From assembly GCA_947259995.1 (NCBI GenBank), contig CAMYOK010000011.1, positions 62,001 through 126,000 of the forward strand: DNA of 64,000 bases. Reading direction: 5' to 3'. Each line of letters begins with the position of its first letter. The stretch's first letter is position 1. Below the pieces are notes generated by a model. That model was not told where the DNA came from and ran no database searches. It saw nothing but the letters and a program-made list of their open reading frames with translations. Positions 22,603 through 59,306 of this stretch are shown piece after piece. Source of the stretch: an uncultured Pseudomonadales bacterium. GTDB lineage: Bacteria; Pseudomonadota; Gammaproteobacteria; Pseudomonadales; Pseudohongiellaceae. A program made the position numbers and the translations under genes.

Positions 22603-22981
22603 GCTGGGTTTTCTCACTATTTTTGCGGGCAAATCATTTAAAAATACTGTTGCCTGTAATACAAAAAAAATAGGACACATTGCGCCTATTTTGGGCGATA
22701 CTGGGCCCGTTGATGCAGTTGAGCCGCAGCTTTCACAGGCTGTAGCTCACAGCTGAAAATAGCAAGAAGATGTGGACTTAATATCGTTTCACAAAGTTAC
22801 AATATGTTCACATTTAGTAGTTACGCAGGGGCATGACTTGAGGTAACCTTAGTTTTGTTCTTGCAACAAGTGGGCAGACTGTCGCACGTGGAGAGTGATA
22901 GTTCGGTAAGTAAAACTACCTTTTATCAGTGTGACGCCCATTAAAATCCTAGCAGCACATGTCAATTCAAGGAGAATTGAA
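22603..22981. other. Long leader region before the PHM-like gene
   Basis: This 379-base gap contains no gene I can support. A weak inverted repeat AAAATAGG/CCTATTTT (22667-22692) could end sodB transcription. A second imperfect one, TGAGC...GCTCA with inner AGC/GCT, lies near 22720-22750. The remaining sequence up to the strong ribosome site of the next gene is long enough for a regulated promoter or structured leader, but I see no known riboswitch. Confidence 0.5.
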
Positions 22982-23935
22982 ATGAAAAAAACAGTTTTGA
23001 CGACTTCTCTGCTCATGGCAGGCGTAAGCATGACTTTATCGTCAGCTTTCGCTGGTGTAGATCCATTGACTCAGGTCAAACCGGCTGACGCTGGCTGGGG
23101 GCTTAATGGCGCTCCAGACTACATCGTAGACGTACCAGCAGCATTGATTCCTGCAACTGGTGTACTTGACTACATCAATACAACTATCGACATGCCTTTC
23201 GAAGAAGAAAAGTGGGTTAAGTCTGTACAGTTTATCCCTGGTGATAAGCGCGTACTTCACCACCTTCTTTCTTATGTTGTGCCTGGTGATGACGCCGAGC
23301 ACGAATTTGACGAAGCCGATAACATCGACACAGTTGAATTCCTAGAAGGCTATGCTCCTGGTAAAGAAGATCCTACAACTTACCCAGAAGCTACTGGCGT
23401 TAAGATTCCTGTAGGCTCTGCAATCAGAATGTCTATTCACTACACTGCAATGGGCCAAGAAACAGAAGACGCAACTCGCGTTGGTCTTTGGTTCCATGAT
23501 GAGCAAGAAGATCTGAAAGCGTTCCGTACGTACTCAGTATCAGCTCGTGGTGGCCGTGAAGACGCTATCCTGATTCCACCAGGTGACATGAACTACGAAA
23601 TGTCAACTAACCACATCTTTGAAGAGGAAACTACTCTTTATAGCTTCCGTGCACACATGCACTACCGTGGTAAGTCAATGCGCGCAGCTGTGATCTACCC
23701 AGATCAAACTCGCGAAGAGATCATCAACGTTGCTAACTACAACTTCGGATGGCAGCCTACTTATCGTCTGGACGAGCCAATGACACTACCTGCGGGTTCA
23801 CGTGTTGTTGTTGAAGGTTCTTTCGATAACTCTCAGTACAACGTAGGTGTACCTGATCCATCTCAGCCAGCCCTTGGTGGTTTGCAGAGCTGGGACGAAA
23901 TGTTCATCGGATACTTCTCATATACTGATGAGTAA
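22982..23935 (+). CDS. Secreted PHM-like copper monooxygenase domain protein
   Basis: The protein has 317 residues. A signal peptide ends near AFA (residue 24). The rest matches copper type II monooxygenases related to peptidylglycine alpha-hydroxylating monooxygenase (PHM). All copper ligands expected from PHM are visible: H93-H94 (RVLHHLLSYV) and H153 (SIHYTAMG) for one site, H225 and H227 (RAHMHYRG) and M307 (SWDEMFIGY) for the other. GWQPTYRLDEPMTLPAGS and FDNSQYN-VGVPDP are family blocks I recall from environmental homologues. The start at 22982 has a strong AAGGAG site seven bases before it. A strong terminator follows, then the redoxin-cytochrome gene. The GGT/CGT/GTA-rich codon choice suggests high expression. 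Substrate unknown. Confidence 0.8.
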   Translation: MKKTVLTTSLLMAGVSMTLSSAFAGVDPLTQVKPADAGWGLNGAPDYIVDVPAALIPATGVLDYINTTIDMPFEEEKWVKSVQFIPGDKRVLHHLLSYVVPGDDAEHEFDEADNIDTVEFLEGYAPGKEDPTTYPEATGVKIPVGSAIRMSIHYTAMGQETEDATRVGLWFHDEQEDLKAFRTYSVSARGGREDAILIPPGDMNYEMSTNHIFEEETTLYSFRAHMHYRGKSMRAAVIYPDQTREEIINVANYNFGWQPTYRLDEPMTLPAGSRVVVEGSFDNSQYNVGVPDPSQPALGGLQSWDEMFIGYFSYTDE

Positions 23936-24027: not shown

Positions 24028-24900
24028 ATGAAAATTTTAAAGTGCGTAGGCCTTTTGGCTGCGGTACTTGCTGGCTCACAATCATTCGCGGCACAAGAGC
24101 GAGTTGGTGATTTCAACCTGATTGACGAAACCGGTACTGCGCACCAGCTAAGCAAATACGGTTATCAGAAAGCGCTAGTTGTCATTTCTCAAGCGAATTC
24201 TTGCATTACTAACCAAGAGCTTTTTGGTGAGTATCGTATTCAACAGACAAAATGGGATAACGAGCAAATCAGCTTCGTTATGATGAACTCTTCTATCAAT
24301 GACAATCCAGCATCCGTTCGTCGTTGGAAGAATAGCTACAACCCAGACATGCCTGTACTAATCGATGACACACAGCTAGTTGCCGAGTTATTAGGCGTTA
24401 CTAAAGCGGGTGAAATCGTTGTTCTTGATCCAAACAGCATGTCTATTCTTTACCGTGGTCCTTTTGACACCCCTTCTCGTCAAGGTGAGCCAGGTACGAC
24501 ATTCTTAAAAGATACATTTGCAGCTATTGCCGCTGGCGAAGTTCGCGATCGTGACACTGTTGTAGTGGATTTCGAAGCACCAGAAAGCTGTGAACTTGAG
24601 TTCCCAGCAAAAATTACTAGTGCTGATGATGTTCCAGACTACGAAACAGAAGTTGCACCAGTATTGATCGAAAACTGTGTTGGTTGCCACATTGAAGGCG
24701 GCATTGGCCCGTTCGCAATGAATAGCCACCAGATGGTTCAGGGCTGGAGCCCAATGATGCGCGAAGTGATCATGACTAAGCGTATGCCTCCAATGAGCGT
24801 GGATCCAGAAATCCGCAGCTTTGAAAATGCTCGTACTATGTCTGTAGAAGACACACAGACATTGATTCATTGGATTAACGCAGGTGCGCCTCGCGAGTAA
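24028..24900 (+). CDS. Periplasmic redoxin-cytochrome c fusion protein
   Basis: The protein has 290 residues with a signal peptide (cleaved near residue 22). Residues about 23-175 form a thioredoxin/AhpC-type fold with a single cysteine, C59 in ANSCITNQELF; the CxxC pair of true thioredoxins is absent, as in the CPxxN redoxin subfamily I recall. Residues about 205-290 form a small heme c domain: CVGCH at 217-221, GPFAMNSHQMV, and MPPM at 253-256, a likely distal methionine. DTQTLIHWINAGAP closes it. It lies 92 bases after the PHM-like gene. In other phyla I recall redoxin, cytochrome and PHM domains in one chain, so the two products probably act as one complex, heme feeding copper. Confidence 0.82.
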   Translation: MKILKCVGLLAAVLAGSQSFAAQERVGDFNLIDETGTAHQLSKYGYQKALVVISQANSCITNQELFGEYRIQQTKWDNEQISFVMMNSSINDNPASVRRWKNSYNPDMPVLIDDTQLVAELLGVTKAGEIVVLDPNSMSILYRGPFDTPSRQGEPGTTFLKDTFAAIAAGEVRDRDTVVVDFEAPESCELEFPAKITSADDVPDYETEVAPVLIENCVGCHIEGGIGPFAMNSHQMVQGWSPMMREVIMTKRMPPMSVDPEIRSFENARTMSVEDTQTLIHWINAGAPRE

Positions 24901-26740: not shown

Positions 26741-27898
26741 TTACATGACCATACTGTGCTTCATGTTCATAACTTCGCGGGCACGGTTTCGTTCCGAGTG
26801 CATCAATTCACCGACCGCCGGTCCGCCCTGATTGTAGATTCCGCCACGTAGCGCGAAACGCAAATAGTCCATCGATTCTGCATTGTTGCTAGTCTTGTTG
26901 GTAAAGAACTCGACAGCCTGATCCATTAACTGGTCCAGATTTTCTGCGTTCGGGAAGGCAAGGATATCGGCGACGACGGTTTCCAGCATGTTCAGGTTGT
27001 CTAGGATAATGGCAGCCTCGGGTGACTGGCTGTACAGGTCTGGAGCGATCGCAGGCGCCATTGGCAGTTCGCTGGGGGTGGGGAACATCGTCATACCACC
27101 GGAGGTACCGGCCTTATTCCAGAAACGCTCAAGCGCTATATTTACACCACCGTCAAACTGGCTGTCCAAACCTTGCAGGATCACCGCCTCCAATGCGGCG
27201 AGTTGTAACCATTGCTGTGTCCACAGGAAACCGCGCAGCAGTGGAAACGCCGATTTCAGCCCGTTTGCCTGATCGTGTTCTAGCAGATAGTTACCCGCCT
27301 TCGGTGCAGGGGCTACGGAATGTTGATCATCGCTAAGATAGTCGGAGATCGCTGCTGTGACGGCGGCGGGTTTGTCTTCGATCGAATCATCGATATAGAT
27401 AACAAATAGTCTTTCCTCGAAGTTACTGCCGCGTTTGAAAATCTCCGCTGTGTGACGACTTATGGCAGAGCTGTTCTCGAAGGCTGTTTCCGCCGCTTCT
27501 TCGCTGTGTTTGCCGCGCATCATTTCCATAAGCCTGACTCGTGCCTCGACCTCCAGATTGTGGTGCGGACCATCGCCCAAGCCCATGAGCATTACGCCAC
27601 TATGCGACATCATCTCTCTCATGGACATCTTGGCCTGCATGTTCAGGCTCGTTTGTAGTTCATTCCGAGCCTGCTGCGTCGCTGGATTAGCATTGATTGC
27701 AGCAATTTCCTCAAAGGATTTAGCCTGAGTCACGTCGAAGGCGTTAAACAAGTCCGCGACCTGTGGATACTGCTGTCGTATCTCGGCCGCTTCCTGTGCC
27801 GTCAGAGCACTGCTAAAGAGGCAGGCAACTAAAATGGCAGAGGCCAGCAAGGTTTTTCTTGTGACCGACTTGGGCTCGTGATTGAGTTTGTTTTTCAT
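26741..27898 (-). CDS. Secreted protein of unknown family, paralogue A
   Basis: The protein has 385 residues. A signal peptide (LLASAILVACLFSSALTAQ, about residues 17-35) leads a soluble, mostly helical chain. I know no family for it. It is a clear paralogue of the protein at 30925-32046: shared blocks include an SFEEI-type helix near the start, APAIAPDLYSQSPEAA followed by IILDNLNMLETVVADILA, TNKTSNNAESMDYL, and LRGGIYNQGGPA at residues 350-361. Several histidines and methionines (MMSHSGVMLM, DGPHHNLEVE, C-terminal MNMKHSMVM) could bind metal, which is speculation. GAGGAA precedes the start at good spacing. It follows the PHM gene pair on the same strand after 390 bases. Confidence 0.75.
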   Translation of the reverse strand: MKNKLNHEPKSVTRKTLLASAILVACLFSSALTAQEAAEIRQQYPQVADLFNAFDVTQAKSFEEIAAINANPATQQARNELQTSLNMQAKMSMREMMSHSGVMLMGLGDGPHHNLEVEARVRLMEMMRGKHSEEAAETAFENSSAISRHTAEIFKRGSNFEERLFVIYIDDSIEDKPAAVTAAISDYLSDDQHSVAPAPKAGNYLLEHDQANGLKSAFPLLRGFLWTQQWLQLAALEAVILQGLDSQFDGGVNIALERFWNKAGTSGGMTMFPTPSELPMAPAIAPDLYSQSPEAAIILDNLNMLETVVADILAFPNAENLDQLMDQAVEFFTNKTSNNAESMDYLRFALRGGIYNQGGPAVGELMHSERNRAREVMNMKHSMVM

Positions 27899-28288
27899 GT
27901 TCTAATTCCTCGATTGGTTCTATTTTCACCGCCTAGCAATTCGAGGCTGGCGGGGCCAATCTATGTATTGATCCCGATTGCGGGATGTGGAAACAGTATA
28001 AACGCATCCCTGCGCAGGTGCCATCGCACTCCCTAGTTTCGCGATTTTCCTCACGACCAGAAGCAATTCCATAGATCAGCAGTGCTTGGCACAAGGTTAG
28101 TAATGTCGAAACTGGCATTGAAATAGCTAGGATAGCTTTATGAGAATTTGTTCGCCGTTCCTGCTCAAGTCGGTCAGTTAGACGCCACATTATGTCAAAG
28201 CGGGAGAGGAACAGAGCAAGTGCTAGGAGGAAACACAAAGAAGGGAATAATGTGCAAGCAGCAAATGTGCTTGCACATTACCCAAGGG
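27899..28288. other. Gap between paralogue A and the twin-cysteine gene
   Basis: This 390-base gap lies between two minus-strand genes. A 101-codon minus-strand frame (27933-28238) with two hydrophobic stretches fills most of it, but it has no good ribosome site or recognisable homologue and ends in a composition unlike a protein. A small inverted repeat around GATCCCGATTGCGGGAT (27970-27986) is present. I cannot assign a function. Confidence 0.4.
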
Positions 28289-29206
28289 TCAAGGATTAAC
28301 GGTTACTGGGAAGTAAGCGTTGGAATAGCAGCAAACATTATCGAATTGGCTATCTGGAGCCTCGAAATTATCTACTCTAAGGCGGATTATGTAATCCCCA
28401 GGCTCTGGGAAGGTCACCTGAGTTGACACCTCGGTCCATTCATTAACGTATGGATCGATTGGATTGTTTTCTGCGCGCACACTTCCAGGAATCTCCGGCG
28501 TTTCTATTTCCGCCTTAGCAGGGCCCTGATGCATAGCCCAGAAAGTGCCAAGATCGTAATAGGGCACAACGTCTGCATAACCATCACGCTCTCCTCGATC
28601 CTGCATCTGCGCAGAAAGCGTGAGTGGCTGGCCCACTTTGACCGTTTTAGGCTCAGCATAGATACCCACTTCATTAGTGGACTCTGGACCACCTTCGCTG
28701 AATCTAATAGCAGGTCTCAAGGAGCCTGCAGCGGATACGCCAGCACTTAACTCATAGGCAGCTGATGTAGCGCGGCCTGGTATAGAGTAAGTGTTGCCGC
28801 CAGAGGTGAGCGTCCAAATAACTTCGGTGCCCGCCATGTCTGCAGGTACAACTACGCCAAAGGCGCCGCGTTCCTGAATACCAACGAATCCACGTCTGCT
28901 ATAGACGGGAAAATGCGTCGGCTGTGCGCCTTGAAATTGCGCCGGTTCCAACATGTTATTAGGCCCTAGCGGTACATCCACAGTCTCCTCTCTATTCTGA
29001 TTGGCGAAGCCAAAAATCAAGGTTGTGGTCCCATCTTCATTGGCAATCCAGCCATTGAACATAGGCGCTACTATTTCTCCAGTCTTTGAGCGAGTCCCCA
29101 AAGGATAATCGCGAGCCCTTTCTGGTAGTTGAGCATGCAGGGGGGCTGCTACAAGCAGCCCCGCCAGCATAGGTAATAATAGTCTAGAAACTTTCAAACA
29201 ACTCAT
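28289..29206 (-). CDS. Secreted twin-cysteine beta-sandwich-like protein, unknown
   Basis: The protein has 305 residues with a signal peptide (LLLPMLAGLLVAAPLHAQ, to about residue 26). The remainder is rich in short beta-like strands; the last 90 residues (KTVKVGQPLTLSAQ, VTFPEPGDYIIRLRVDN) resemble an immunoglobulin or PKD-like sandwich. It ends with vicinal cysteines C292-C293 in FDNVCCYSNAYFPVTV. I recall similar CCWTN/CCYSN endings in unnamed secreted proteins found beside cytochrome-PHM genes, but cannot check. Its ATG overlaps the stop of the cytochrome c-PHM gene by one base (TAATG), so translation is coupled and the two products probably form a pair. A role in copper delivery or substrate binding would fit but is unproven. 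Confidence 0.76.
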   Translation of the reverse strand: MSCLKVSRLLLPMLAGLLVAAPLHAQLPERARDYPLGTRSKTGEIVAPMFNGWIANEDGTTTLIFGFANQNREETVDVPLGPNNMLEPAQFQGAQPTHFPVYSRRGFVGIQERGAFGVVVPADMAGTEVIWTLTSGGNTYSIPGRATSAAYELSAGVSAAGSLRPAIRFSEGGPESTNEVGIYAEPKTVKVGQPLTLSAQMQDRGERDGYADVVPYYDLGTFWAMHQGPAKAEIETPEIPGSVRAENNPIDPYVNEWTEVSTQVTFPEPGDYIIRLRVDNFEAPDSQFDNVCCYSNAYFPVTVNP

Positions 29207-30543
29207 TATTGCGCCCCACCATCCAAGCTAGCAACACTGCTATTGTCTCGTTCTTTGCGCTCGCTTAGAAGGGTCTCATAAGCTTCGTCATCGAGGTGAG
29301 AAACCGCGATCCATGCATGAGACATCTCATCCGTCGTACGCTGACCAGAGCCCACCCACTGATCCGGGTCAGGATTCATGGGGTTGTCTGCAGTGTTGTC
29401 ATACCATGCGGTCATGATAAGGGTCGCGCCCGCAGGAATAAGAGGCTGATAACCTTCTTCATAGGTGTGGCTGTGGTTCCAAGCGGAGGTCCAATTGGAA
29501 GCCTGACTTAATACTTCTGTTCTGCCCGTTTCCGGATAGAACACTTCCAATGACATTGCGACACCGCGCAGATGCATGTGAGGCTGCCAACTATCGATGC
29601 GAACCGGATGGTCGAAAGACCTGAATCCCTGTGTCATAAGTTTGCCATGGGGGGCAATCATATAATCATCCGTTGACGCAGAGAGCGTATAGGCGCGCAA
29701 GTCTTGGCGGTAGCTTTCTTCTTCGACAAAGTTATCTTCTTCGTCGTGGTACCAGATACCTATAGTCACTTGGTCATTTGGCACCGCAGTGCCATCGGGG
29801 AAATAGTGAATCTCCCACTCAACTTTCGAATTCGCCGGCACTTTTCGGCAAGCACCTTCTGGTACTTTCTCTCCAAGCTTGCCGATCGCAAATTCTGACA
29901 GACGGTCGCCATCGACCCATTCGCCGTTTGCGTCCAGAACCTTGAAGTGCGAGTTGGCATGGTGAGTTGAGCCTATCGCTGCTGCCGAAGGACGTGTCTC
30001 TACAGCCTTAATGCAACGACTCTCGTCGATGCCCGAATCTACAATTGGCTTCCACCACAGGTCTTGACCATTCGCAGGGACATCCCAAGCTTCAGATTTA
30101 ATAGTGTGATCGGGCTCTCCGAGCTCAGCGGCTAAACGCCATTCGTCCACAGCGGGAAACATCTTGGGCTCCGGTAAATCTTCTGGATTGCCCATTGGAG
30201 AACCAGCGTTAACCCAGTCTACGATTGTATCGATCTCTTCTTGTGACAGACGCCAGTCATTTTGGAGATGTTGAACGCCAACGTCGTTATCGTAATGATA
30301 AGGAGGCATCTCTCGGTTCGCGACTCTCATCTGAATGAGTGGAGCCCAAGGACGCACTTCTTCATAGCTCATGAATGACATCGGCCCAACTGATCCAGGT
30401 TGGTGGCAGTTCTGACAATTCTCCTGAATTAGCCGAGACACCTCTTTGGCATAAGTGGGGTGTGTAGCGGCTTCCTGAGCACTGCTAAGTGCTGGGAATG
30501 CTGCAAAAACTAATAGCGTTTTTAAAACTTTTTGATACATCAT
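29206..30543 (-). CDS. Cytochrome c-PHM fusion, periplasmic copper monooxygenase-like
   Basis: The protein has 445 residues with a signal peptide (to about residue 22). Residues 25-120 form a heme c domain: CQNCH at 43-47, GPMSFMSYEEVRPWAP, and MPPY at 79-82 as candidate distal methionine. Residues 130-425 form a PHM-like copper domain with all six ligands visible: H194-H195 (STHHANS), H246 (EIHYFPDG), H322 and H324 (QPHMHLRG), M407 (TTDEMSHAW). The fusion suggests electrons reach copper from heme in place of ascorbate. It is coupled to the twin-cysteine gene by TAATG. Two starts (30543 and 30540) are adjacent. A palindrome overlapping a likely -10 box lies about 70 bases upstream. Substrate unknown. 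Confidence 0.82.
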   Translation of the reverse strand: MMYQKVLKTLLVFAAFPALSSAQEAATHPTYAKEVSRLIQENCQNCHQPGSVGPMSFMSYEEVRPWAPLIQMRVANREMPPYHYDNDVGVQHLQNDWRLSQEEIDTIVDWVNAGSPMGNPEDLPEPKMFPAVDEWRLAAELGEPDHTIKSEAWDVPANGQDLWWKPIVDSGIDESRCIKAVETRPSAAAIGSTHHANSHFKVLDANGEWVDGDRLSEFAIGKLGEKVPEGACRKVPANSKVEWEIHYFPDGTAVPNDQVTIGIWYHDEEDNFVEEESYRQDLRAYTLSASTDDYMIAPHGKLMTQGFRSFDHPVRIDSWQPHMHLRGVAMSLEVFYPETGRTEVLSQASNWTSAWNHSHTYEEGYQPLIPAGATLIMTAWYDNTADNPMNPDPDQWVGSGQRTTDEMSHAWIAVSHLDDEAYETLLSERKERDNSSVASLDGGAQ

Positions 30544-30924
30544 TTTCCATATCCTCTTACTGGGATGGGCATTTTGAATACACTGATCGGTATTTCGAAC
30601 TCTTAATTCAATGAGTATAATTACATGTAATGCTCATTTGAGCCTACTACTTCCAGTCCTTAAATGTTACGAATTGTCGACTAGATGTGCAAGCTTCTCG
30701 AGTTATTACGCACCAACATAAAGCCGAAAGACCTTTAACTTACTGACATTCGGCAAAAAATGCACCAAAACGAAGCGAAGAAGCAAGCACGTTTTCATTT
30801 CCTTTAGTAATGCCCCTGAATCTGAATTGGAACTTTTACTATCCAGAATCCGGAGTTTCGTTGCCAACGAGCTTATAAATTACGGTGCAATTATTGGCTC
30901 CCACTCATTTGCTGGGCAAAGAAG
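30544..30924. other. Regulatory gap before the cytochrome c-PHM gene
   Basis: This 381-base gap holds the promoter-operator candidate listed at 30611-30637. It also holds an inverted repeat GCCGAA/TTCGGC (30723-30754, 20-base loop) that could weakly terminate transcription from paralogue B on the minus strand. No gene is supported in it. Confidence 0.5.
30611..30637 (-). promoter_or_regulatory. Palindromic operator candidate overlapping a -10 box
   Basis: ATGAG and CTCAT flank an ATTACATGTAAT palindrome, making a 27-base imperfect dyad. On the minus strand it overlaps TATACT, a good -10 box, about 70 bases before the cytochrome c-PHM start. No good -35 box is seen, which fits a regulated promoter. 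Confidence 0.5.
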
Positions 30925-32046
30925 CTAAAGCGGATCAGGCTGTGAACCGATACTGATGTGGGGGTTCTCCGACTGCTCCCGTGACCAGTTTCGGTCCGGC
31001 CGATCAAGGCCACCCCGGGCAGGTCCTCCGGCATTGTAGATACCACCTCGTAGCGTGTAGTACAGATAATCGATTTCATCGCTGAAGTTGCTAGTTTTGT
31101 CGGTGTAATTTTGCACGGCCAGTTCTATTTCCTGCCATCGATCTTCTACTTCCGGATGGGCGAGGATGTCGCCGATGACGACTTTTAACAATTCCAGATT
31201 ATCAATGATATAAGCAGCATCCGGATACAGTTCAAAGAAAGTGGGGGCGATAACGGGGCTGGTAGGGATGTCTGTGGGCAGAGAAACTAGACTGCCATGC
31301 TGGCGGTTTATTTTCTCATTGTAGAGCTCCAATAGGTGTGCAATAGCTTGATCGCGTGATGCTACATCCGGCTCTGTTACCAACAGCTCCAGCGCGCCAA
31401 TCTTCAACCATTGCGATGCCCAGGTTAAGCCACTGAGTTGCGGGAAGCCGGCATTGAAAGCATAGGCCCACGGGTGTTCCGATAACAACTCATCGGATTT
31501 CGGCTTGGCGGCGATAGAGTGCAAGTCATTCTGCAAATAGCTCTCTACCGCAAGTGCCACCGCGCCCTTCTTATCCTCGAAGGCTGGGTTGATGTAAATC
31601 TCAATAAGTAATTCAATAAATTGGCGGCCCTTTTGCAGGGTCTCTACCGCTACGGGAGGTAAGTTGCCGACATCCGCCAAGGCGGTACCTACCTCTTCGG
31701 CATTATAGTTTCCCCTAACGACTCCCAACAGGCCAGGAATCGCCCGACTTTCAAACACGCGATGTGGCCCCAGCATTGCCGAATGATCACCGGCAGAGTG
31801 GTAGTGTGAGTTTTTCGATTCCTCGAGTTCCTCAAGAGTTTCCAACAAGACTCTCTGACCTATGGCTGCAATGTCAGATGCATTAGCAAGGCTAATTTCT
31901 TCATAGACTCGCGCCTGCACAATATCGTGGGCTAGCAGCAGTTGTTGCAGCTCAGGATACTGCTTCGCCAGAGCAGTGTCTTCGTCCGCCACTGCGGATA
32001 GGGAAAACAAGGCCAACAGAAAAGTTGCGAGTCTAAAACCTTTCAT
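30925..32046 (-). CDS. Secreted protein of unknown family, paralogue B
   Basis: From the ATG at 32046 the protein has 373 residues and begins with a clear signal peptide (GFRLATFLLALFSLSAVA). An ATG 39 bases further upstream adds 13 residues that would spoil it; AGGGTG lies eight bases before the chosen start. It is a paralogue of the protein at 26741-27898: shared blocks are VYEEISLANAS, SPVIAPTFFELYPDAAYIID followed by NLELLKVVIGDILA, TDKTSNFSDEIDYL and LRGGIYNAGGPA. The chain looks helical and soluble, with no catalytic motif I recognise. The two paralogues flank the cytochrome c-PHM and twin-cysteine genes on the same strand, so a shared role is likely. Confidence 0.75.
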   Translation of the reverse strand: MKGFRLATFLLALFSLSAVADEDTALAKQYPELQQLLLAHDIVQARVYEEISLANASDIAAIGQRVLLETLEELEESKNSHYHSAGDHSAMLGPHRVFESRAIPGLLGVVRGNYNAEEVGTALADVGNLPPVAVETLQKGRQFIELLIEIYINPAFEDKKGAVALAVESYLQNDLHSIAAKPKSDELLSEHPWAYAFNAGFPQLSGLTWASQWLKIGALELLVTEPDVASRDQAIAHLLELYNEKINRQHGSLVSLPTDIPTSPVIAPTFFELYPDAAYIIDNLELLKVVIGDILAHPEVEDRWQEIELAVQNYTDKTSNFSDEIDYLYYTLRGGIYNAGGPARGGLDRPDRNWSREQSENPHISIGSQPDPL

Positions 32047-53166: not shown

Positions 53167-53187
53167 ACATCAAGGTATTCCTCCCGC

Positions 53188-54030
53188 ATGCAAAACATCC
53201 GCAACTTACAGACCGATATCGTAATCAATGTGACCAATGCGCTACGCGAAGATATTGGCGATGGCGACATCACGGCCCAGCTCATTCCTAAAGACAAGCA
53301 GGCAGTTGCGAGTATCTTTTGCCGCGAAGACGCCGTTATGTGCGGCACCCCCTGGGTAGAAGAAACTTTGCGACAAATCGACCCTACTATCCAACGCCAA
53401 TGGCAATGCAAAGAGGGAGACGAGGTCGGGCAGGACCAGGCTCTCATCGAGCTACGCGGCAATGCACGCTCGCTTCTCACTGCCGAACGCACATTGCTAA
53501 ACTTCATTCAGAGCTTATCAGGGACCGCCACGCTTTCCCGCGCCTATGCAAACAAGGTTGCGCATACGCAAGTCAAACTACTCGATACTCGCAAGACTAT
53601 TCCAGGGCTGCGCAGCGCACAAAAATATGCGGTAAGAATTGGCGGCTGTCATAATCATAGGATCGGTTTGTTTGACGCATTTCTAATAAAAGAAAATCAT
53701 ATCAACGCCTGCGGATCCATCAGTGCCGCTGTTGCAAAAGCGCAGCAACTACACCCTGGCAAACCCGTGGAAGTCGAAGTCGAGAACCTGCAACAACTCG
53801 AAGAGGCACTCGCAGCACAAGCCGATACCGTCATGCTAGATAATTTTTCGCTTGCAGATTTACGCAAAGCAGTCAAAATCAATTCAGGCAAAGTAAAACT
53901 TGAAGCCTCTGGTGGCATTAATGATAGGACTCTAGTCCCGATTGCAGAGACTGGCGTAGACTTTATCTCCATTGGCGCTTTAACCAAAGATTGCAAAGCC
54001 ATCGACTTATCGATGCTTTTTCACTCATAA
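53188..54030 (+). CDS. nadC: Quinolinate phosphoribosyltransferase NadC
   Basis: NadC makes nicotinate mononucleotide from quinolinate and PRPP in NAD synthesis. The protein has 280 residues, standard length. Family blocks are [69 protein letters not shown], and [13 protein letters not shown], then LEASGGIN. It follows the aspartic protease gene after 21 bases. nadD is in another unit of this window. Confidence 0.97.
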
Positions 54031-57608: not shown

Positions 57609-59306
57609 ATGCAAAAAAACATTAGCGGGCTCGCTAAACGACTTGTCTCAATCGGCATTTTGTCTGAGGCGCAAGCGCAGGAGTCATTGCGCAGTGCAAA
57701 TCGGGATAAAATCCCTTTAGTGACCCATTTGGTGAAAAATAAAATCGCCGACAGCCACCGTATCGCTACTGCCGCCTCCGCAGAATATGGCGCCCCGCTA
57801 ATGGACCTCAATGCATTTGACCTTACGCTTTGCCCCAAAGAACTTGTTGACCCGAAACTACTTCGCAAACATCGCGTTCTGCCTTTATATAAACGAGGCA
57901 ATAGACTCTATCTCGCAGTCTCCGACCCTACGAATATCAACGCTGTCGATGAAGTAAAATTCCACACAGGGCTGACAACGCAAGTAGTCATCGTCGATGA
58001 GACAACTCTCTCTCCTGCGATCGATCGTTTCATCGATGACTCAGAGGGTGGCAGCCATCTACTCGATGCAATCAATGATGTCGACTTAGAAGACCTCGAC
58101 ATAGAGGTCGCAGACAAAGAAGATCCTGCATTAACAAACGATGCGGCGGATGAGACTCCGATAGTACGTTTCGTTAACAAAGTGCTACTAGATGCCATCC
58201 GTAGTGGCGCCTCGGACATCCACTTCGAGCCTTATGAAAAAACTTTCCGCATTCGTACTCGCACCGACGGCATCCTTAGGGAGGTGTCACGCCCGCCTCT
58301 GCACTTAGCGGCCCGTATCTCTTCGCGCCTAAAGATCATGTCACAGATGGACATCTCTGAGCGCCGCGTACCGCAAGACGGCCGAATCAAGATGAAGCTT
58401 TCTCGCACGCGAGCAATAGACTTTCGCGCCAACACCCTTCCCACTTTATGGGGCGAGAAAATCGTCTTGCGTATTTTGGACCCTAGTAGTGCACAAATGG
58501 GCATCGATGCGCTTGGCTATGAAGAGGACCAGAAGGCTCTATTCATGGACTGCTTGAACAAGAGCCAAGGCATGATCCTCGTCACAGGCCCCACCGGTAG
58601 CGGTAAGACAGTCTCCTTGTACACCGGCCTCAATATTCTCAACACGAGTGAGCGTAATATTTCCACCGCGGAGGACCCGGTTGAGATCAACCTTGAAGGG
58701 GTTAACCAAGTCGCGGTCAACGCAAAGATTGGGCTTAGTTTTGCCGCCGCCTTGCGTGCCTTCCTGCGCCAAGACCCCGACATCATCATGGTGGGTGAGA
58801 TTCGTGACTTAGAAACCGCTGAGATTGCCATTAAGGCCTCGCAAACAGGCCATCTTGTGCTCTCGACCCTACACACCAATAGCGCTCCAGAGACGCTCAC
58901 ACGCCTGCGCAACATGGGGATTCCTTCGTTCAACCTAGCCACGTCAGTCTCTCTTATCATTGCTCAGCGCCTTTGCCGTCGATTGTGCTCCTATTGTAAA
59001 AAACCACTAAAGCTACCTGAGAGCACGCTACTCGAAGCCGGCTTTGCCAAGGAGCAACTCGACTCTCTCCAATTATTCGCCCCCGTCGGCTGTGATGCTT
59101 GCAACGAAGGATACAAAGGCAGAGTCGGAATATATGAAGTGGTTCCCGTTACAGATGGCATCGCTCGTATTATCATGGAAGACGGAAACTCTATTGCTAT
59201 CGCCGACCAAGCGAGTAAAGAGGGTTTCAACAATCTGCGCCAATCAGCATTGCAAAAAGTGGCAAAGGGTTTAACCAGTTTAGACGAGGCTAATCGCGTC
59301 ATCTAA
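57609..59306 (+). CDS. pilB: Type IV pilus extension ATPase PilB
   Basis: PilB is the cytoplasmic hexameric ATPase that drives pilus assembly. The protein has 565 residues: an N-terminal MshEN-type domain (residues about 5-150), then the ATPase core with Walker A GPTGSGKTV, the Asp box around EDPVEINLEGVNQVAVN, Walker B IIMVGEIRDLETAEIA and the His box LSTLHTNSA. Four cysteines near the C-terminus (CRRLCSYCKKP and GCDACNEGYKGR) form the zinc site. pilC follows 40 bases downstream. Confidence 0.96.
   Translation: MQKNISGLAKRLVSIGILSEAQAQESLRSANRDKIPLVTHLVKNKIADSHRIATAASAEYGAPLMDLNAFDLTLCPKELVDPKLLRKHRVLPLYKRGNRLYLAVSDPTNINAVDEVKFHTGLTTQVVIVDETTLSPAIDRFIDDSEGGSHLLDAINDVDLEDLDIEVADKEDPALTNDAADETPIVRFVNKVLLDAIRSGASDIHFEPYEKTFRIRTRTDGILREVSRPPLHLAARISSRLKIMSQMDISERRVPQDGRIKMKLSRTRAIDFRANTLPTLWGEKIVLRILDPSSAQMGIDALGYEEDQKALFMDCLNKSQGMILVTGPTGSGKTVSLYTGLNILNTSERNISTAEDPVEINLEGVNQVAVNAKIGLSFAAALRAFLRQDPDIIMVGEIRDLETAEIAIKASQTGHLVLSTLHTNSAPETLTRLRNMGIPSFNLATSVSLIIAQRLCRRLCSYCKKPLKLPESTLLEAGFAKEQLDSLQLFAPVGCDACNEGYKGRVGIYEVVPVTDGIARIIMEDGNSIAIADQASKEGFNNLRQSALQKVAKGLTSLDEANRVI

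Follow-up and report, generated by a model that had tools for sequence, protein, structure and literature searches.

A secreted, lineage-restricted protein family linked to bacterial cytochrome-PHM fusions and bearing possible sequence marks of copper binding

Two paralogous proteins, FA and FB, encoded in a 64,000-nt stretch of DNA (the window), belong to a secreted, lineage-restricted and previously unnamed family that, judging from its sequences and gene neighborhoods, appears to be functionally coupled to cytochrome-PHM systems and carries putative marks of copper binding. We put at about one in two the probability that these are secreted copper-binding accessory proteins, acting as metallochaperones or as a local reservoir for PHM-type systems. 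We know of no resolved route by which PHM/DBM-type enzymes in bacteria acquire their two coppers, and an orphan family tightly tied to bacterial cytochrome-PHM fusions provides a handle on copper supply. Members of one marine bacterial family hold 10–19 copies of cytochrome-PHM enzymes.

FA and FB align over their full length (35% identity, 217 bits, E = 1e-71), a similarity far above chance. Both begin with a signal-peptide-like segment, with a likely cleavage site preceded by A34, which is 95% conserved among relatives. The first-pass annotation had described two secreted paralogues on one strand, flanking the cytochrome-PHM and twin-cysteine genes, and the reading frames, strand and coordinates bear this out (Table 1). 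Most of the motifs listed there were also recovered: an SFEEI helix in one paralogue and VYEEI in the other, the TNKTSN/TDKTSN block, and the C-terminal motif in the versions LRGGIYNQGGPA and LRGGIYNAGGPA. The AIAP-type block (AIAPDLYSQSPEAA versus VIAPTFFELYPDAA) is looser than the pattern given for it. Among 55–79 relatives, the C-terminal motif LRGGIYNxGGPA is nearly invariant, whereas the KTSN block is not.

An in-frame upstream ATG is an alternative start for FB, extending the gene to 32085. Between the two paralogues, the gene of the twin-Cys protein (TwC) overlaps that of the cytochrome c-PHM fusion (cPHM) by 1 bp. Given the hairpin that follows TwC, FA may be transcribed apart from cPHM-TwC in the window, although this is weak evidence and, over the entire scan, hairpins were no more numerous than in shuffled sequence. 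A 101-aa ORF between TwC and FA (27933–28238) was rejected as spurious: its start codon is TTG, it matches no family, and the tabulated loci of relatives lack a gene call at this place.

Table 1. Features of the FA/FB locus and its surroundings, in window positions.
Feature	Position	Strand	Description
Stand-alone PHM	22931..23935	+	Cu2_monoox_C E = 3.8e-8; homologous to C-terminal half of the redoxin-cytochrome c-PHM fusion (rcPHM); six ligands intact
Redoxin-cytochrome c protein	24028..24900	+	Homologous to N-terminal half of rcPHM
Paralogue A (FA)	26741..27898	-	Secreted, 385 aa, Met/His-rich type; ORF, homology to FB
FA C-terminal MxMxHxMxM tail, residues 376–385	26744..26773	-	Disordered in model
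FA Met/His-rich loop, residues 86–115	27554..27643	-	30% Met+His across relatives; model confidence low at 99–106
Terminator-like hairpin, 16 pairs	28245..28283	-	Directly after TwC, between FA and the cPHM-TwC unit (window genome)
Twin-Cys protein (TwC)	28289..29206	-	Secreted, Ig-like beta-sandwich model, invariant C292-C293
Cytochrome c-PHM fusion (cPHM)	29206..30543	-	Six PHM copper-ligand residues (HH, H, HxH, M) all present
Paralogue B (FB)	30925..32046	-	Secreted, 373 aa, His type
FB His loop HYHxxxxHxxMxxxH	31762..31806	-	Residues 94–108 in 386-aa reading

The earlier statement that the pair belongs to no known family held in every database searched. Neither the window pair nor any of 21 members scanned matched a Pfam or NCBIfam model above its curated cut-off, and single-sequence and profile searches of the PDB gave no credible relative. 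Weak matches to DUF5954, DUF4179 and L27, below cut-off and in one or two members only, were taken as chance. The AlphaFold model of FA, built with 79 sequences, is confident and all-helical (mean pLDDT 82.6, pTM 0.82), with 234 of 385 residues at a pLDDT of at least 90 and only the loop and the tail disordered. Foldseek found no match for this model in the PDB (best E = 1.1, TM 0.13) and nothing below E = 0.28 in the PDB and viral models together. We describe the family as apparently lacking a known fold relative within that scope, and claim no new fold.

Profile searches placed all relatives in the window's own GTDB family (Pseudohongiella/OM182 type) within the genomes sampled. Named genomes, when scanned, yielded 135 encoded relatives; the 80 best come from MAGs and isolates, Pseudohongiella sp. 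and OM182 bacteria among them. No relative was found outside the GTDB family in partly overlapping samples of 392 genomes from the order, 369 from the class and 398 from the phylum. The window's genome holds a third copy elsewhere, beside a redoxin-cytochrome-PHM fusion gene.

A tree of 55 members resolves two fully supported deep clades, A (n = 27, with FA) and B (n = 28, with FB). Clade A proteins carry a Met/His-rich stretch before a GPxxxxE helix (such as MDHGGHGGHGGMAMEMDMNGH in locus L146) and a C-terminus that reads like AMDMQHNMIMSSPQ; Met and His make up 30% of residues 86–115 and 20% of residues 361–385, against 3–8% elsewhere. These are the low-confidence parts of the FA model, in which loop and tail are probably flexible. 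The best 25-residue segment holds on average 9.0 Met+His in clade A compared with 3.9 in a set of 220 secreted-like proteins encoded elsewhere in these loci (p = 9e-16) and 4.6 in clade B, a small excess over the same 3.9 (p = 5e-4), both p values being indicative only since the sequences are related. In clade B, H94, H96 and H101 are found in 28/28 members within the same loop, and H263 stands in for the M269/M271 region of clade A. H208 is common to nearly all members of both clades, and 134 of 139 members have no Cys past residue 60. Met/His-rich stretches, with thioether and imidazole ligands, are classic marks of periplasmic copper binding (PMC11840665; CopM, PMC4335983), and the Met/His segments and the absence of Cys suggest the same for FA and FB. 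The invariant or nearly invariant polar residues (K176, Y187, K200, H208, E237, K262, D300, N301, D311, R351 and R374) lie in many cases outside the Met/His segments, and the copper reading does not explain them.

The family is strongly linked to PHM-type genes. One lies at most four genes away in 44 of 55 loci from relatives, where about 2.5 would be expected if 17 PHM copies were spread over 3,000 genes, and in 40/84 loci of the named set, which is biased towards A. A is the next gene after TwC in 15 loci, at a median gap of 54 bp; rcPHM is the next gene after B in 22, at a median gap of 21.5 bp. Tight four-gene operons cPHM-TwC-B-rcPHM, each on a single strand, occur in two genomes, G016 (gaps of -1, 40 and 9 bp) and G050, and a third, G012, has the order cPHM-TwC-A-B-rcPHM. 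Context labels change on the tree far more rarely than shuffled labels do. The bracketed order B-cPHM-TwC-A, which the first-pass annotation had taken as a sign of a duplicated accessory or substrate protein, is real in the window genome and three close relatives but is not general. The two paralogues fall into separate deep clades, each usually with a partner of its own. In these four genomes rcPHM is split, with redoxin-cytochrome and PHM genes nearby on the opposite strand, and the bracketing is therefore a local merger of two modules.

Co-occurrence gives the same picture at the level of genomes. A close cPHM (E < 1e-80) is present in 32/32 family-bearing genomes and in 1/27 genomes of the same GTDB family that lack it, the exception being a cPHM fragment in G040 (Fisher p = 7e-16, not corrected for relatedness). 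Close cPHM genes are seldom seen outside the GTDB family, and those that are seen there are more distant. Among relatives G000–G057, the family-bearing genomes show a striking expansion of dicopper monooxygenases, with ~10–19 cytochrome-PHM-like copies each. The same genomes have 1–6 copies of the FA/FB family, too few to give most PHM copies a linked partner.

The two usual partners differ in their copper sites. In 40/41 cPHM proteins the full set of six copper ligands (HH, H, HxH, M) is intact, whereas the CuM HxH is replaced by [K/R]xN in 24/24 rcPHM fusions (for example L042:7049-8731(-) and L033:8234-9937(-)), 0/24 keeping the CuM histidines, and their CuH site is partly eroded; the PHM domain, missed by Pfam in both, was assigned by the ligand pattern and by similarity to the stand-alone PHM of the window. 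B's usual partner is thus a possible PHM pseudoenzyme with redoxin and cytochrome. The loss of the CuM histidines was unexpected, and it implies that B has some role beyond loading a normal dicopper site. A profile search of the PDB found no match for cPHM, and the literature searched assigns no function to bacterial cytochrome-PHM fusions. TwC proteins form a family of 1–15 copies per genome in which the vicinal pair C292-C293, close to the C-terminus, is invariant. The TwC model (pLDDT 71) shows only an Ig-like beta-sandwich resemblance, which suggests tandem Ig-like domains. On one contig (G000:C4), a cytochrome-PHM gene appears to be broken at residue 188, as if interrupted by an insertion: its halves (53184-53927 and 57853-58368) share a strand and are separated by ~3.9 kb.

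Clade A is also found in other surroundings. By our own count, 29 of the 84 loci of the named set, which favors A, place it in an operon with a TPR protein, a SorA/SoxC-like molybdenum oxidase, a cytochrome c and a DUF5916 outer-membrane-type protein (Pfam), after which comes a multicopper oxidase or YdbH gene; L090, L101, L110 and L113 show the full series of TPR, SorA-like oxidase, cytochrome c, DUF5916, FA and multicopper oxidase or YdbH. Many of these loci have no copper enzyme among the next genes, and the A proteins in them are as Met-rich as other A proteins. In a third arrangement, A follows a cupin gene and is convergent with cPHM-cPHM-TwC. A's partner is therefore not always a PHM. 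The first-pass annotation had asked whether homologues always lie near PHM-like or cytochrome genes and had held that unrelated contexts would speak against its reading: proximity to PHM is seen at 44/55 loci, and the molybdenum-oxidase context, about one third of the wider set, counts in part against it. Many FA genes have a cupin gene just upstream, together with one for a large HTH/NB-ARC/TPR regulator (L139, L157, L135, L076). Near a multicopper oxidase, the product of L113:11860-12216(-) is small and secreted and repeats segments that contain His, Met and Cys (GHGAAGNMECKMGD); it may be another metal-binding protein.

We infer from these data that members of the family bind copper, deliver it to PHM proteins and dock on them. 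FA and FB would be periplasmic, all-helical proteins serving the cytochrome-fused PHM-type copper proteins of their own gene clusters. The A form would hold Cu(I) in its flexible Met/His-rich loop and C-terminal Met/His tail. In the B form, the His cluster of the loop and the His found in place of the second Met pair would make up a His-dominated copper site. Docking on the partner would be the task of the folded core common to both, with its invariant H208, E237, D300, N301, D311, K262 and R351. This reading is suggested by the linkage, the co-occurrence, the Met/His enrichment, the Met-to-His exchange, the absence of Cys, the intact cPHM ligands and the multicopper oxidase genes adjoining some A copies; against it stand the A loci in the molybdenum-oxidase operon, the pairing of B with a PHM lacking CuM, the few family copies per PHM and the small Met/His excess of B. 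A more specific proposal, which we regard as doubtful, is that the two forms are a copper-loading pair for bacterial dicopper PHM, a lineage-specific fold with its ligand chemistry split between paralogues: Met-type A would handle Cu(I) on behalf of the catalytic cytochrome-PHM, and the CuM-less rcPHM pseudoenzyme, with which His-type B would work, would serve as an electron or copper carrier.

The main rival, possible although rather unlikely in our estimate, is a structural or assembly subunit that stabilizes periplasmic oxidoreductases with attached cytochromes, whether PHM fusions or the SorA-like/cytochrome pair, metal binding being secondary. All contexts share a secreted oxidoreductase and a c-type cytochrome, not always copper, and both the tight operons and the position of most invariant residues within the folded core fit such a role; it leaves unexplained why Met and His are so strongly enriched at particular positions and why the clades exchange Met for His, and 1–6 family copies are few for 10–19 PHM copies. 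That FA and FB are all-helical enzymes acting on what the monooxygenase uses or makes is very unlikely. The invariant polar residues listed above do resemble a functional pocket, yet the Pfam and PDB searches gave no enzyme as a fold or sequence relative, and the family also occurs with different oxidoreductases. PHM hydroxylates C-terminal glycine-extended peptides, and the gene linkage by itself would allow FA and FB to be substrates of the PHM-type enzyme; with a C-terminal Gly in 0/139 members and family members far from PHM genes, we consider this extremely unlikely. Of the two roles offered in the first-pass annotation, the accessory one is well supported by the linkage and agrees with the co-occurrence and the Met/His segments, and the substrate one has been dropped.

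It is also quite improbable that the proteins act as a copper sponge, buffering Cu(I) released near copper enzymes for protection and not for delivery, in the manner of SilE/PcoE or CopM. The flexible Met/His-rich segments, without fixed positions, resemble those of sponge-like domains (PMC11840665), and CopM, a periplasmic Met/His-rich protein required for copper resistance, offers a precedent (PMC4335983). FA and FB, however, sit with enzyme genes, no copper efflux or CopRS-type genes adjoin them in the loci read, and they exceed such sponges considerably in size and have a folded core that is conserved; FA, with 385 aa and 234 high-confidence residues, does not match a small, largely disordered sponge of the SilE/PcoE type.

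As copper-binding accessory proteins, FA and FB would have counterparts in several known systems. With CopM (DUF305), PcoE/SilE, CusF and the Met-rich domain of CueO they share secretion, Met/His-richness, a Cys-free mature protein and a Met-rich stretch that is likely flexible (PMC4335983, PMC11840665). They are unrelated in sequence to CopM and other Met/His-rich copper proteins (no DUF305 match at E <= 0.1 in 21 members or at E <= 1 in the window pair), have a folded helical core of ~350 residues and, unlike the CopM-type group, are linked to PHM and cytochrome genes and not to copper efflux genes. The linked enzymes resemble the eukaryotic PHM/DBM monooxygenases in the six copper ligands of cPHM and in the Cu2_monoox_C match of the stand-alone PHM, and differ from them in the fusion of cPHM to a c-type cytochrome. 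To our knowledge, the eukaryotic PHM/DBM family has no dedicated linked copper chaperone. PCuAC and Sco differ from FA and FB in sequence and in the predicted all-helical fold, with no Pfam match to those families; the likeness lies in the proposed role, in which one class of secreted enzyme would receive its copper from a protein encoded in its own operon, and linkage to a copper enzyme gene, a trait of metallochaperones, is found here at 44/55 loci (40/84 in the A-biased named set).
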